64,000 nucleotides of DNA from Cyclobacteriaceae bacterium (GTDB taxonomy: Bacteria > Bacteroidota > Bacteroidia > Cytophagales > Cyclobacteriaceae), in NCBI GenBank assembly GCA_958296015.1, contig CATQIH010000020.1:124001-188000 (forward strand), given 5' to 3'. Below are positions 8,380-62,349 of this stretch, in pieces; position 1 is the first letter of the stretch; each line of letters opens with the position of its first letter. The position numbers and the translations under genes are program-made. The notes beneath the pieces were generated by a model, which was not told where the DNA came from, did no database searches, and worked only from the letters and a program-made list of their open reading frames with translations.

Positions 8380-8988
8380 ATGCGGAAAATAATGAAGTAC
8401 GTATTACCAATTCTATTTTTGCTTGCTGTTGCCGGTATTATTTGGGTTGTATTTTTTGTTTTTGATTTTGTCGTAGAGCCTGAAAAGAGAATAACTGGAA
8501 TTGTTACGATTTTAGGCTTAGGTTTTGGAGTGTTTCAATTTTGGATAGCTGAAATCAACATTCGCTTAAGAAGAATAAGTGAATTAAAACAAAACGAATA
8601 TCATCAAATATTCTTAATTGTTGAGTCAATTCCTGATTTATTAAATGTTGAGATGATGAAGGAACAAATTAATAATCCACATGGACTCGTAAGCACATTA
8701 ATGAACCAATTCAATAGATTGAGTTCAATAATTAGGGTAAACAAAGACTTTCTCTTTCCAGGTATATTTGATAGCAAAGAGTCACAAGAAATGAAAGAAG
8801 TTTTGGAAGAAATAATTAGAAGGACCGATAAATTCAAACAAAGTATGGAGAAAGACAATGCAAGTACTATGGAAAATACAGTGGAAAAAGTTGAGCTAAT
8901 AAATTGGCATAATGATATGAAAGAGAGCCTTGAAACATATCATTCAGTGAAACACGCTTTCTATAAAAAACTAAGAAGCTATAAATAA
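8380..8988 (+). CDS. Two-helix membrane protein, unknown function
   Basis: A 202-aa protein that I do not recognise. Two transmembrane helices sit at the N-terminus (YVLPILFLLAVAGIIWVVFFVF and ITGIVTILGLGFGVFQFWIA). They are followed by ~145 residues of charged helical, probably cytoplasmic, sequence (LKQNEYHQIFLIVESIPDLL; EVLEEIIRRTDKFKQSMEK). The gene is clearly more AT-rich than the housekeeping genes to its left and sits at the edge of the IS-rich island, which suggests horizontal acquisition. Confidence 0.65.
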   Translation: MRKIMKYVLPILFLLAVAGIIWVVFFVFDFVVEPEKRITGIVTILGLGFGVFQFWIAEINIRLRRISELKQNEYHQIFLIVESIPDLLNVEMMKEQINNPHGLVSTLMNQFNRLSSIIRVNKDFLFPGIFDSKESQEMKEVLEEIIRRTDKFKQSMEKDNASTMENTVEKVELINWHNDMKESLETYHSVKHAFYKKLRSYK

Positions 8989-9034
8989 CAGTCTACTTGC
9001 CTACCTTGTTATATAGTCGGATGGCCGATGCCAA

Positions 9035-9099
9035 GGAATCGCGGCCATGACAGCCTTGTTATACAGATAGCAATACCCTGCCATATTGTAACAAGATCC
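9035..9099. repeat. Palindromic repeat, copy 1, with a 15-nt insert in its left arm
   Basis: The right arm TAACAAGATCC matches a left arm GGAATC...TTGTTA only if 15 nt (GCGGCCATGACAGCC, 9041-9055) are removed. The loop (ATAGCAATACCCTGCC) resembles the loop of copy 2 at 9204-9278. Confidence 0.6.
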
Positions 9100-9161
9100 C
9101 TACGGGATGACAAAATGGGAATAGTAACAGACCTAATATATTGTCAAAAGAATGCCCCTTT

Positions 9162-9716
9162 AGCTTCAAATGCAATCTGAAGCCTTCTTACCCCATGTCA
9201 TTCAGGGGGAATCGCGCCACGATGGCCTTGTTACATAATAGCACTATCCTATCGCTTTGTAACAGAACCTTTCCCCCCTCTAGCTTCAGTTTGTAACTGA
9301 AGCCTTCAAATTGGAGCACGATGGCCATACATAACTTGCTTTTATTAATTTAAATTCATCCGGTCATGCCTCTAGCGCGTATTTACAATGCGTGATTTGC
9401 CTTTCTGATACTATACTTAAAATCATTATATTTGTATTATGAGCAAAAGAGAGAATACGTTGCAATTGATTATGCATGTCGTTGACAAAAACTCCTCTAG
9501 CGCGCATTTGTAATGCGTGCCTTGCCTTTCTGAACTTAAAGTCTCTCCTAATGCTCATCTGTAATACGTGATTTACTACTTTCCTGTATTCACTAAACGA
9601 TGCAAGTTGTAGTAGACGGGTGATAGATATTAGATAAATTTTTGTTAATCTTAATTCCTCTAGTCCTCTAGCGCGCATTTGCAATGCGTGCCTTACCTTT
9701 CTGAACTTAAAGTCTC
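9162..9716. repeat. Cluster of short palindromes with fixed TTTGYAAT-like centre
   Basis: Repeated short palindromes have different arms but a similar centre. Examples are GCTTCA-AATGCAATC-TGAAGC (9163-9183), GCTTCAGT-TTGTA-ACTGAAGC (9283-9303), and GCGCGCATTTGTAATGCGTGC near 9500 and 9670. The last two share ~50 nt including CCTTTCTGAACTTAAAGTCTC, and a third related copy lies at ~9370. The 106-aa ORF drawn here (9364-9684) is only repeat sequence. Confidence 0.7.
9204..9278. repeat. Palindromic repeat, copy 2, with a 14-nt insert in its left arm
   Basis: Left arm GGGGGAATC-[GCGCCACGATGGCC]-TTGTTACA; right arm TTTGTAACAGAACCTTTCCCCCC. The 14-nt insert is 9214-9227. The insertion point (ATC^TTGTTA) is the same as in copy 1. 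Confidence 0.6.
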
Positions 9717-9718
9717 CA

Positions 9719-9792
9719 ATTGCTAGTGCGCTCCACGCCGGATGCGTTTGTAACGCCAGCCGCGCTGCGCGTTACAAACGCGCACTAGCAAT
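9719..9792. repeat. 74-bp MITE-like palindrome with 13-bp perfect ends
   Basis: ATTGCTAGTGCGC at the left is exactly inverted as GCGCACTAGCAAT at the right. The inner arms CGTTTGTAACGC / GCGCGTTACAAACG continue the palindrome. The left arm alone contains an extra CTCCACGCCGGATG (14 nt), which breaks an otherwise near-perfect hairpin. Confidence 0.75.
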
Positions 9793-9862
9793 CTTAAATC
9801 TGGCAAACAGCATGATAAGCTAATGGCAACCGTTGAACAAATTTTTGAAACATATAAAAGAC

Positions 9863-11304
9863 GTAACTACTCAGGTAGCCGGGCTAGCCATGATTTGAGA
9901 TAGATAGGCAAAGATATCTAGCTCTCTTTTTTTGAGGGTGTCAATGAGGGAACGTAGTACACAGAAATCATTTTGTCCGGTTTTGAACTGCCCGGAGACT
10001 TTCTGTTTTACCTTCACGTTGCGGATGGCTCTTTCTGAGGCATTGTTGTCGGGGGGCACTTCCAGATTATAGAGAAAGACCAGCAAACAGTCACGATGCT
10101 TGAGCAAAGACTTTTGAAAGGTAGCCGTCTGTGGGTGTTGTTTTGGGTCAATGAAGCGCACCAACAAACCATTGAGCCGATGCTCCAACCGGTAGACCTT
10201 CTTTTCTTGTTTGTCAAAGGCTTTTCCCCGTTCTTGAGCTAGCATATCCACCTTCAAAGCATCTTGTAAGAGGGTTTTGCAGTGGGTAGCCCAGGAACTT
10301 TTTTCGCTCTCTTCTAAAAAGATTAAGTCTCTCTGCAAATGCGCCAGGCACAACTGTTTGGCTTGGCAAGCGGTTTTGAGCTGGGCTGCCCAACGATCAG
10401 AACCTACCGTAGCGTTAGGTAGTCCATCCAGGAAAGTGTCCACCACCGTTTGACTGCCTGGGCTAGGGGCAGCTTTCAAAAAAGTATTGCTAGCATTTTG
10501 CCATACCCAGACCCACCAGTTTTTACCATTGACTTTGGCCCCGGTCTCATCGCTACCCACATAGCGGGCTTGTGCTAGCTCTTTGTGTATGGCTTCATAG
10601 ATTGGGGTAGCTTTAGTAGCTGCTCGCTTCAACAGGTTGCTGATACTGCCTTCACTGATGGGTAAGCCAAACATATCCTGGAAAAGCAAGGCCAAACGCT
10701 GATAGGGCACATACTGAAAGACGCTCAGATACCATACATACGCTTCTACCCGAGGGCCATATTGTATCGGGGGCATTCACTGCTGCTGGATAGGCAGCTT
10801 TTTGAAAGTGATCGCAAGCCGGACAACAACAACCATATTGCCGGTATTCAGTGTATATGGGCTGCACGGGGGGAATATCTACCACTTGACCTCGGCATAC
10901 CATGCTCTGATCGGCAGGCAATTCACTGCCACAGGCCTGACAGTAAGTACTTCTGAGTTCTTCTACCTGATCGGCTAACGTGACCATCTCCAGGGTATGG
11001 CCACGATGACCCGCCTGTCCACCGCTCTTACGCTGGCTTTTTTCCCGAAGACTTTTAGCTACTTTACTACGCTTACTTTTATCCTGACTCGGTGGGTTAT
11101 GGCTATTATGGCTGTCTTTCTTGACTGTCTGACTTTCCAGCCTTTGCAACAAAAGTATGATCTTTTCCTCCAGGCTAAGCACCTGCTGGCGCAAAGCAGC
11201 GTTCTCCGCTCTCAAAATCGCTATTTCATTAGAGTCGTTCACCTCTCAACATTAATGACTGTTTCCTAACTTACCAAAATCCTTTAGCTTACCTGAGTAG
11301 TTAC
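9863..11304 (-). mobile_element. IS66-family insertion sequence
   Basis: A ~1.44-kb element bounded by perfect 15-bp inverted repeats GTAACTACTCAGGTA / TACCTGAGTAGTTAC. It carries one transposase gene in two frames and no separate TnpA/TnpB accessory ORFs, like the ISBst12-type subgroup. Its flanks (TAAAAGAC and AGCTAAAG) do not form the 8-bp target duplication expected of IS66, so one side may have been rearranged after insertion. Confidence 0.88.
9871..11242 (-). pseudogene. IS66-family transposase, frameshifted
   Basis: The N-terminal part (11242 to ~10770) has the coiled leader (IAILRAENAALRQQVLSLEEKI), the SGGQAGHRGHTLEM segment and zinc-finger cysteines (CQACGSELP ... CCCPACDHFQKAAYP). 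The rest (10776-9871) holds the DDE domain: YVGSDETGAKVNGKNWWVWVW, GSDRWAAQLKTACQ and the glutamate in PPDNNASERAIRNVK. The two frames meet at a C5 run (GTGAATGCCCCCGAT); four C would give the expected VNAPIQYGPRVEAY. It is therefore a +1 mutation or consensus error, with programmed shifting less likely. Confidence 0.85.
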
Positions 11305-13400: not shown

Positions 13401-13721
13401 CCGATTGAGACATTAAACATTATTCTGATAATTTATTAAGGGGTTCTGGCAGCCATTCTTAGGTTATGCAATCCGCAGGCAATGAGCATGACTTGATGGC
13501 CTACATTTTGGATGCGCAATCTAATTTTTTCCTTGACAATATTGAGTCTTTTAACACCTGCCATCACGTGCTCTACAGGTACTCTGATTTGGCTAATGTC
13601 AGCCCCCGTGAAGTTTTAAGGTTAAACAAATTTTTTCGCTATAACTTTTCAAAGATTCTCATTCGCCATGTTTAGCTGCTAATAATCCACTTTATGCTCA
13701 CTACCGCCCTGCGGTTGCTGG

Positions 13722-13764
13722 TTCATTATCCAGACAAAAGCAAAGCTTTTGCCTGGATAATGAA
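13722..13764. repeat. Long hairpin inside the IS110 3' noncoding end
   Basis: TTCATTATCCAG / CTGGATAATGAA (12 bp), one mismatch, then CAAAAGC / GCTTTTG (7 bp) with an AAA loop. It lies between the transposase stop and the element end. Confidence 0.8.
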
Positions 13765-13803
13765 CGTTATCAACCAAACCGGATTTAACTTTATGATACA
13801 TTA

Positions 13804-14831
13804 TTAAGCTGCATTACTATACTGCTTCAATACTACATATTCAGTGCCTCTGTTGATAGTAGCAAAAATACGGTTGATCAGCTTAGCTCTGACCGGGCCA
13901 CGGCGGCAGCATTAATCACCACCATTTTAGGTTTTCCTTCTTCAACTTTGCGTTGATAATAGTTTCTCATTTCTTCATCAAACTGTATAGCAGTAGCAGC
14001 ACCATTACTTAACAAAGCCTTCATACGTTTATTAGCCAAAGGACTTGTCTTAGTTCTACCCCGAATACTACTACCAGACTGGTGTTCAAAAGGAGCTACC
14101 CCGCAGTAAGAAGCGAATTTGCGACTGTCATTGAAAGCGGTGAAGTTATTGGTACACAAGATCAAGGCTACAGCAGTTATTAGTCCTATACCAGGAATGG
14201 AACACAGAAGTTTTAAGCTTTTTTGAACTTGTTCGTCTTCTTCAAGAACAGCTTGAATTTGCTCTTCGGTTTGTTTGACTTGTTGTTCAATGAGTTTTAA
14301 TTGCTTTTCAGACTGCTTAATAATAAACTTGCTGTCTATTATACGTGAGGTGTCTTTTAAGTCTTTAATAGTCTGCTTCAGGCTTGCCTGGGTTTTGATC
14401 AACCGCTCTCTGAAAGCAAACAGATTTTTAAGCTTGAGTAAACAATTTGAAGGCAATTGCATAGGTTTTAGTTCATGACGATGTAGAAAAGCATAGTAAG
14501 CAATCCGCTGAGCATCCACTTTATCATTTTTACCCCTTACTAAACCTAACGATCGCTTTAAATGTAAAGGCGATAAAAGAACGAATGGAAGCTCTTTATC
14601 TTGCAAAAAGCTGCATAATTCAAGGGTATACCATCCAGTATGTTCCATGACAAAAAAGCTCTCAATTAAGGTGATTTTTTGCTTTTTAAGCCAAGTAAGC
14701 AATTGCTTATAACCGGCAAGTGAATTGTTGAATTTTTGGTGGATAAACACCTTTGGAGTCTCTAATTGTCCTACGGCTACATCAAAAGTAGCTTTAGAGA
14801 TGTCAATGCCAATGAAATAGGAAATTTTCAT
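13804..14831 (-). pseudogene. IS110-family transposase with 14-bp insertion near its 3' end
   Basis: DEDD (RuvC-like) transposase: FIGIDISKATFDVAVG, EHTGWYTLELCSFL and GKNDKVDAQRIAYYAF in the N-terminal domain, then a coiled region, then the C-terminal domain (LLCSIPGIGLITAVALIL; FASYCGVAPFEHQSGSSIRG). The listed ORF ends VVINAAAVARSELS. Deleting CGGGCCACGGCGGC (13894-13907, plus strand) gives VVINAVRAKLINRIFATINRGTEYV..., the normal family end, with the stop at 13804. The start is at MKISYF (14831). It is probably inactive. Confidence 0.85.
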
Positions 14832-14858
14832 AATTTTATAGTTGAAAAGATAAAACAA

Positions 14859-15040
14859 AATGAAGCCACTAATCCCTTTCGTAAGCCTAAAAGCTTAATG
14901 TTCTAATTGGTGCTGCTTCAACAAGTAGAGAGCTAGGGACTAATTCACGGGTTGAGCCTTGATAACTCTGGCGCGGTGGTAGTTCACCCTAGTTCTCTTT
15001 TAATATAGTACTTTTCCAGTACTATGTCTATATTACAAAT
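14859..15040 (-). ncRNA. Candidate IS110 bridge RNA region
   Basis: The ~190-nt noncoding 5' end of the IS110 element contains a strong long-range pairing on the transposase strand: AGAGAACTAGGG (14988-14999) with CCCTAGCTCTCT (14927-14938), enclosing ~50 nt. IS110-group elements encode a bridge RNA in this position that pairs with target and donor DNA. Guide loops were not verified, so this is family-based inference. Confidence 0.5.
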
Positions 15041-16015
15041 CTAAAGGGCGCGGTATTATCTTGTTTCTGTTTGGTTAGCTCACCGTTCTTAGGCTTTTTG
15101 TGCGGGATCAAGACGCTGATATTTTCTGGCTCATAGCCTTGGTAGCCTAAATCTTCTATGAATACTGTCTCATTGGGATAGCAGTGTCCAGCTTCATCAG
15201 CTAACTTTTTATCATGCACACTACCTGGATAGGTACTGCGAAGAAACAAGATCTGACTTTGCTGATCTACGATCAAATTGTTCTTGACCGTATGGGTTTT
15301 CTTCTTACCACTTATACTGCTCATAGTCCACTGAACGGGGTATACGGCGTTCAGTAGCGTCCATGAGTAACGCATAGCGCGTAAAAGTCTGCAAGAAAGC
15401 GTAGAGCGCATAGCCGAAGCGTTTGGGTAGAACCTTTAACTGTTTTAAGGCTTTTTCTAGCAAAGGAATCAGTAGCTTAATCCATTTGCTCACGCGGGGT
15501 TGCTGCATGTTAAAGAGCAGCCCCTGAAAGTGCTGACGAGGGTTTTCCTTCATATAGACCAGGATAAAGAGTAGCTTCTGCTGGCTACCTTTCAGGCTAC
15601 ACCGTTCATCGTCTTTGAACTTGGGAATGCATCTAGGCTTGCCTTCCAAGTCATGGTACTGAAAGTAGTTTCGGCACAGCGGATCAAAGACAGTAAGTAA
15701 TCTCATAAACTCAGCAGGACTTAAACTCGTTGTTTGCAATACATTAGGGTGGTCTGTTGGATTGTTTTGGATAGTTTGCATACTAAAATAGTCAGCAAAC
15801 TACCCTTTTTGTTCTCTCTGTACTTAACATTAAGATACACTTTGTACACATACGAACAGGGTTTGTCCGAAACCGAACACAATTGATTATTTCATATTGC
15901 GTTTAGGCACTCTACAAGCACTTTTTCTGACTGGTATCATTATTGGCATAATGCACACAAATACTACAAGAATGTAGGTATAAAAAGTTTTTAAGCATCA
16001 AGAATTATATAAGCC

Positions 16016-53212: not shown

Positions 53213-53255
53213 GGTTGCTGTCAGCACTATTGGCTGGCTTTATTGTCAAACTAAA

Positions 53256-53475
53256 CACAAGCGGACGCTCAATGCTGTCGACTTAAGAAATATTAATCGC
53301 TCGGCTCCTGCCGACCGGCGTCCTGCCGAGTGATCAGTATTTTTGAGGCTTCCGCGCCGCGTCGGCCAGCCTCAGAAGGCAGGATGCCTTTTTATATTGT
53401 TCACTCGCGGGACGCGAGCGACTGACAACGAATCCTCAAGTTGACCGGGCACGGCGGCAGCATTGAGCGGACGCT
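53256..53475. repeat. ~220-bp palindrome-rich element with inverted ends, one end carrying a 13-nt insert
   Basis: The left end GCGGACGCTCAATGCTGTCGACTTAAG is inverted at the right as CTCAAGTTGAC-[CGGGCACGGCGGC]-AGCATTGAGCG. Inside are GC-rich hairpins: ATCGCTCGGC / GCCGAGTGAT (53297-53335), TGAGGCT / AGCCTCA enclosing TCCGCGCCGCGTCGGCC, AAGGC-AGGAT-GCCTT, and CTCGCG-GGA-CGCGAG. Confidence 0.65.
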
Positions 53476-53719
53476 TGCGTTAGGTCGTTTTCAATAGATC
53501 ATATACCCTCGCGGATAGCTTGTCGCCGAATGGTGAGTAGCGTTTTATGAGAACAATGAACTTACAACTGTTTGCAACTCCCCATCTCGTTTCAGTCTGT
53601 GACTGAAACGAAGAGATACACTCAAGTCTTAGACTGCGTGTCCCGGACTGAAGCTAGTAGTGGAGGAAGCTAGTGAGAGAGAACGATAAGATAAGCTTAC
53701 AACCATCCGCAATGCACAG
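53476..53719. other. Noncoding tail of the repeat region
   Basis: It contains one more partial array unit (TCGCCGAATGGTGAGTAGC near 53523), a palindrome CGTTTCAGT-CTGTG-ACTGAAACG (53588-53610) and AGTCTTAGACT. No gene. Confidence 0.5.
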
Positions 53720-62182: not shown

Positions 62183-62273
62183 GGGGGATTAGCTCAACGG
62201 TACGCCGCGCGGCTGGCTAGAGCGTCCCGAAAGCATTCGGGAAGGTCACCGAGGCAACTGTATCAACTTATTG
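62183..62273 (+). pseudogene. Degenerate tRNA-Ala copy with inserted segments
   Basis: GGGGGATTAGCTCA and GCTGGCTAGAGCG match the tRNA-Ala at 62274 but are separated by 15 extra nt (62197-62211, ACGGTACGCCGCGCG). The anticodon arm is replaced by TCCCGAAAGCATTCGGGA, then AGGTCACCG, and no T arm or acceptor 3' strand follows. Not a functional tRNA. Confidence 0.7.

Positions 62274-62349
<76 letters not shown>

Follow-up and report, generated by a model that had tools for sequence, protein, structure and literature searches.

The window analysed here, 64,000 nucleotides of a Cyclobacteriaceae bacterium (G000:C20:124001-188000 of its own 5.9-Mb genome), carries near its left end two related palindromes with TGTCAT-type ends, each lengthened in one arm by a short GC-rich segment. 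Copy 1 reads GGAATC-GCGGCCATGACAGCC-TTGTTA...TGTAACAAGATCCC and copy 2 reads GGAATC-GCGCCACGATGGCC-TTGTTAC...TGTAACAGAACC, and direct reading bore out the initial annotation of this DNA in that extras of 15 and 14 bp lie at the same point and in the left arm only. The palindromes it described exist, but its bounds (9035-9099 and 9204-9278) were replaced by about 9007-9112 for copy 1 and 9196 to about 9279 for copy 2, and its count of one insert per left arm held for copy 2 but not for copy 1, where a second insert of 16 bp (9017-9032) had been overlooked. The host palindrome has terminal inverted repeats, as expected of a miniature inverted-repeat transposable element, and several of its copies have ends of the TGTCATYCNGNAGGRAYC type. 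Folded individually as DNA, the two copies were unremarkable (z of -0.97 and -2.15), which is weak evidence alone, so the case for inserts rests on homologous copies.

Filled and empty arms were told apart by explicit sequence patterns with controls in 2.8 Mb of the genome, read as stretches that gave the L-numbered loci used below. The common form there was the unfilled arm GGAACC^TTGTTAC, with about nine arms empty (including L096:6518, L131:459, L094:14432, L129:3501, L148:851, L156:194 and window position 9088) against five filled. Because arms are ordinarily unfilled, the extra segment is an insertion and the derived state is that of the left arm, as first proposed; the same module also occurs in unrelated hosts, and the survey of arms did not uphold the converse case of a right arm shortened by deletion. 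In copy 2, where CCATCGTGGCGCGA sits at AAGG^TTCC, the joined flanks are exactly the unfilled arm GGAACCTTGTTAC. A close homologue, C39:69570-69678, matched the insert of copy 2 at 14/14; its other arm was filled at the corresponding point by another sequence, GCAGCGGCGAACCGCC, of 16 bp, and the arm at C40:37561 held a 15-bp insert there, GCGCGGCGAACCGCC. The insert of copy 1 agreed with that of copy 2 at about 11/14 plus one base when aligned by eye and is probably a diverged module of the same family (family 1, below). Since the inserts of copy 2 and the C39 left arm are identical and that of copy 1 is a diverged relative, a single gain in the left arm, followed by copying along with the host, is probable; separate acquisition, which the initial annotation had offered as one of two possibilities for the left arms, applies instead to the C39 right-arm and C40 inserts. 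Its other possibility, divergence with pairing kept, is not the main explanation, as the insert pairs with itself (GCCA-CGA-TGGC) and not with the opposite arm. At the point of the 16-bp insert of copy 1, L156:194 carried the near-identical TCGGACGGCCGATGCC and L131:459 carried nothing. Insertions also nest: within the 16-bp insert at TGTCATTCAG^GAGGAACC, L076:7601 holds a larger insert, and that of L095:3462 is larger again.

Exact module patterns were counted across the whole genome with the reversed pattern as control, and counts are given below as module/reversed. Family 1 is a 14-bp module, CCRCCGTGGMVCGG (register CC[AG]NCG[TC]GG[CA][GCA]CGG), present in 70 exact copies against 0 of the control, and in the 2.8 Mb there were 56 matches scoring at least 13/14 against 3 in the control, 9 of the 56 belonging to one tandem array. 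A second family of 15 bp, CCGGGYCGCCGGGCG, gave 28 copies against 0, and related inserts measured 12-17 bp. Module GC content was 86%, that of the flanks 44% and that of the genome 45%. The base preceding a family-1 module was G in 20 of 21 distinct contexts and the following base was T or A in 18 of the 21, and no host bases were lost at its empty sites. The flanks were TG^TC in 30 of the 70 exact copies, many of these lying within copies of one host repeat. Modules of 14 bp also form tandem arrays of 2-9 copies.

Table 1. Host palindromes, modules and inserts in the window (positions of the whole stretch).
Feature	Position	Strand	Remarks
Palindromic host element, copy 1	9007..9112	+	TGTCAT-type ends; left end decayed to TGTTATATAG, right end GATCCCTACGGGATGACA; homologous ends elsewhere
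16-bp insert TCGGATGGCCGATGCC, copy 1 left arm	9017..9032	+	at TGTCATTCAG^GAGGAACC; filled in L156:194, empty in L131:459
15-bp insert GCGGCCATGACAGCC, copy 1	9041..9055	+	reverse strand in module register: CTGTCATGGCCGCGA (9039-9053); aligned by eye to CCATCGTGGCGCGA
Unfilled right arm, copy 1: TGTCATCCCGTAGGGATC, continuing TTGTTACA	9095..9112	-	
Palindromic host element, copy 2	9196..9279	+	right outer arm degenerate, end approximate; homologue C39:69570-69678
14-bp family-1 module CCATCGTGGCGCGA, copy 2, at AAGG^TTCC	9212..9225	-	score 13.2/14; register of the initial annotation GCGCCACGATGGCC, 9214-9227; same insert in C39
Family-1-like module CCGGCGTGGAGCGC in another palindrome (CTAGTGC..GCGTTTGTAACGCG)	9728..9741	-	paralogues L144, L171, L181
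14-bp module CCGCCGTGGCCCGG inside IS110-family transposase gene (13878-14858), at NA^VRAKLINRIF	13893..13906	-	
Module CCGACGCGGCGCGG in hairpin TTCTGAGGCTGG^AAGCCTCAAA	53352..53365	-	empty copy L096:2383 equals joined flanks, 28/28
Third-family module GTCCGGGACACGCAGTC in REP-type CTTCAGTC hairpin	53632..53648	-	
15-bp GC-rich insert ACGGTACGCCGCGCG, D-loop of tRNA-Ala-like relic	62197..62211	+	relic from 62183; adjoins intact tRNA-Ala 62274-62348

The inserts of the two palindromes are one case of a genome-wide process that the initial annotation did not notice. Among hairpins of the repetitive extragenic palindromic (REP) type in the 2.8 Mb, GCTTCA..TGAAGC was found in 37 empty copies of 21 nt and in filled forms of 35, 37, 51 and 163 nt, the last comprising 16 plus nine tandem 14-mers. 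Other palindromes in the same sample grew by 14, namely AGCGCGTTTGTAACGCGTTACAAACGCGCT (30 to 44), TTGTG..CACAA (14 to 28) and GATTCA..TGAATC (21 to 35). GAGGCT..AGCCTC likewise went from 15 to 29, and GGCTGTG..CACAGCC was 18 nt empty and 46, 60 or 74 nt filled. The pattern CTTCRGTCN{0,30}GACYGAAG returned, genome-wide, only 19-nt (empty) and 33-nt (+14) forms plus one of 42 nt. At GAGGCTGG^AAGCCTC the joined flanks matched an empty copy at 28/28. An unguided search for A-B versus A-insert-B pairs, which carries a visible chance background, gave 14 bp as the commonest length among GC-rich non-tandem inserts. Once aligned to one register, many of the inserts in these various hosts proved to be the family-1 14-mer.

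Modules were also found inside transposon genes. IS110-family transposase genes (NF033542) bore them in the window, L085, L064 and L144, and when the 14 bp were removed and the flanks joined, the conserved IS110 C-terminus ...INAVRAKLINRIFATINR was restored and the scores against uninterrupted homologues on Chryseobacterium and Flavobacterium plasmids rose from 534 to 584 and from 544 to 575. The IS110 pseudogene of L064, aligned to its window paralogue (80% identical), contained five extra inserts of 15, 14, 15, 15 and 15 bp with 93-100% GC, the only other in-gene gaps being one offsetting 8-bp pair that looks like an alignment artefact. About a dozen inserts were counted in an IS110 relic in L197, and one or two each in ISAs1-, IS3- and relE-like remnants (family names assigned by eye). 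Of the genes checked in the 2.8 Mb, no long, intact gene outside transposons contained a high-scoring module. The module shortens the window transposase from 346 to 326 aa. Because the window element (13602-15054) and the L085 copy are 100% identical over 1453 bp, their sequences suggest recent movement despite the shortened transposase, and the window IS110 is possibly an active element with a shortened C-terminus.

Pattern counts in 149 genomes of the same family placed family 1 in several genera but patchily: 70/0 in the own genome, 25/0 in G048, 14/0 in both G109 and G163 (one genus), 7/0 in G130 and 6/2 in G172, with values near zero in most of the 149, among them the one other genome sampled from the own genus. 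Family 2 reached 4-5 copies in G109, G163 and G139. Neither the filled/unfilled arm pattern of the host nor a large host element of the L102 type was found in any of these relatives.

Taken together, the extra segments are likely to be insertions of very short GC-rich modules dispersed as mobile sequence throughout the genome. Insertion of tiny dispersed modules is well supported by the comparisons of filled and empty sites. The filled state is the derived one, insert length is nearly constant, family 1 has a G-ended target, and modules nest and grow in tandem. In their behaviour they are comparable to some of the smallest mobile DNA observed in bacteria. As to how they spread, we infer that an undescribed activity would paste a short module copy, probably as a folded single strand, into a G-ended site, and that tandem arrays would grow afterwards by slippage. 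The TGTCAT palindrome would then be a passive host whose left arm probably gained a module once before the host was duplicated. More tentatively, a dedicated and hitherto undescribed bacterial activity may insert fixed-length GC-rich sequences of 14-15 nt at G-ended sites; these would be among the smallest bacterial mobile elements, would be common to several genera of a single family, and would be tolerated by an IS110 transposase gene that still transposes.

Several observations weigh against this interpretation. No mover of the modules was identified. Many filled sites arose by copying of a single filled host, so independent insertions number tens, below the full copy count, and the TG^TC count is inflated in the same way by copies of one host repeat. 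Some junctions carry direct repeats of 3-5 bp with varied sequence, which is easier to reconcile with microhomology or slippage than with a single enzyme. For GC-rich strings, the reversed pattern used as control possibly underestimates the chance rate. Stem formation by the inserts was barely above composition-matched shuffles (p about 0.02; like the boundary-repeat test, made against shuffled inserts with a hand-picked set of 18), and with so small an excess we do not claim that the modules are mini-hairpins of fixed geometry.

The main rival is template switching with short homology, together with slippage, during replication or repair. Sharing a few bases with another GC-rich hairpin, a stalled end would switch to it, copy about 14 nt and then switch back, and a dedicated element would be unnecessary. 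Direct repeats at several junctions (AGTC, AACG, CCGC, GTGC, GGTC) exceeded those of shuffled inserts, 43 against 15 +/- 4 in the hand-picked set, and the tandem 14-mers and the nesting of modules are what such a process could leave. It would not be expected, however, to yield a near-constant 14-15 bp across unrelated hosts, a G ahead of nearly every module, or entry into IS110 coding sequence without obvious homology, and the patchy high copy number in a few genera resembles an invading sequence; we regard template switching as rather unlikely, though a serious competitor.

Movement of the modules as minimal REP-like hairpins by the machinery of a REP-associated Y1 transposase (RAYT) is improbable. 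In its favour, REP hairpins belong to the hosts, and the RAYT genes of this genome sit within REP hairpin clusters (C20:362.4k and C7:233k). Two exceeded the NF047646 cut-off, L072:14368-14919 and L146:12947-13489, both inside clusters of REP-type hairpins; this proximity bears on the host hairpins and not on the modules. Co-occurrence did not support RAYT as the mover: RAYT genes are present in 133 of the 149 genomes, modules are rich in few, and the module-rich genus g102 has weak RAYT matches only (best E 2.5e-11 and 5.7e-15), so module abundance does not follow RAYT presence. The modules also lack the tetranucleotide tag plus 20-40-bp hairpin that define REPs. In its NHVH and YIHQNP motifs, the protein encoded at L072:14368-14919 resembles Bacteroidetes subclass 2.6 of PMC6006769.

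That the module is instead a functional component of the palindrome, for example as a terminator or a structured RNA tolerating side hairpins, and recurs by selection, is very doubtful: the insert of copy 2 does form its own small stem beside the central one, but Rfam gave no match within window positions 8500-10000, the inserts are found at many different positions, disrupt reading frames and lie in pseudogenes and in a tRNA-like relic as well, and the IS110 pseudogenes already suggest an equal module density in neutral sequence. Equally hard to credit are unfilled arms as deletion products of an ancestrally filled palindrome, since, although short GC-rich hairpins can be lost through slippage and three filled copies have one insert or its relative in common, unfilled arms are in the majority and the module recurs in unrelated hosts, including genes whose uninterrupted form is the conserved one.

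Insertion of mobile modules, the interpretation favoured here, finds its closest behavioural parallel in the GC clusters of yeast mitochondria (for example GC42, PMC4478555), which are palindromic, as the modules may be, and likewise short, GC-rich, scattered in AT-richer DNA, prone to merge and shuffle with one another, patchy among relatives and without a known mover; the modules share a GC content well above that of the host DNA. GC42, however, is organellar, 42 bp long and has an AG target site (PMC4478555), whereas the modules are 14-16 bp long, follow a G (often in TG^TC) and lie in a bacterial chromosome. In bacteria the closest elements are REPs and the Rickettsia palindromic elements. 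REPs and REPINs moved by RAYT transposases are also small palindromic repeats, and RAYT genes occur here within host-hairpin clusters, but a REP is a 20-40-bp palindrome with a GTAG/GTGG or CGTC tag (PMC3733652, PMC6006769), whereas the modules have 14-15 bp and no constant flanking tag, and the REPs of this genome are hosts invaded by them. Rickettsia palindromic elements and intragenic REPs (PMC3733652) similarly enter genes and sometimes other palindromes; those, however, exceed the modules in length and often keep the frame of a live gene, whereas the 14-bp inserts break the frame, the gene cases are transposon genes or relics, and no in-frame insertion in a functional gene was seen among the genes checked in the 2.8 Mb. 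IS110 elements that target REPs (IS621, PMC11208160; PMC1525189) are also mobile DNA entering palindromic repeats, but they are kilobase-sized with their own recombinase and bridge RNA, and here IS110 is itself a module host. Because defining length, tag or target features differ, the modules are not filed as members of GC clusters, REPs or Rickettsia elements. No earlier description of such modules in bacteria was found in the open-access literature, a result that speaks for novelty to a limited extent.

At 14-15 bp, mobile DNA has no room for the ends that known transposases recognise. If the modules are inserted by an enzyme, short sequence would be written into genomes by a route not known before; should they arise by template switching, the genome holds an unusually clear record of dozens of nested events with matching empty sites. 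By either mechanism, the old question of how GC clusters move becomes testable in a bacterium.

Several further observations concern the modules and their hosts. A third module family occurs as tandem CGGGACRCGYAGTC at L087:3641-3740, L136:150-222 and L192:1000-1060, most of it inside REP-type hairpins; a scan of named genomes for the third module TTCRGTYYGGGACRCGYAGTC with its host pattern gave a single match (Oricola), which was taken as chance, and records of the own or near genomes are possibly absent from that collection. Outside the window, C38:8449-8578 consists of about nine copies of the tandem 14-bp unit CCCCGTCGGGATGA. Within it, a run of CTCTAGCGCGCATTTGTAATGCGTG hairpins (9364-9790) adjoins both the TGTCAT palindromes and an IS66-type transposase (9871-11242), and a palindromic element of about 230 bp (AAGCGGACGCTCAATGCTGTC.., 53250-53490) carries a module in only one of its two arms, repeating the asymmetry of the TGTCAT palindromes. 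The tRNA-Ala-like relic (62183-62260), about 90 bp upstream of the intact tRNA-Ala, has its anticodon arm replaced (TCCCGAAAGCATTCGGGA).
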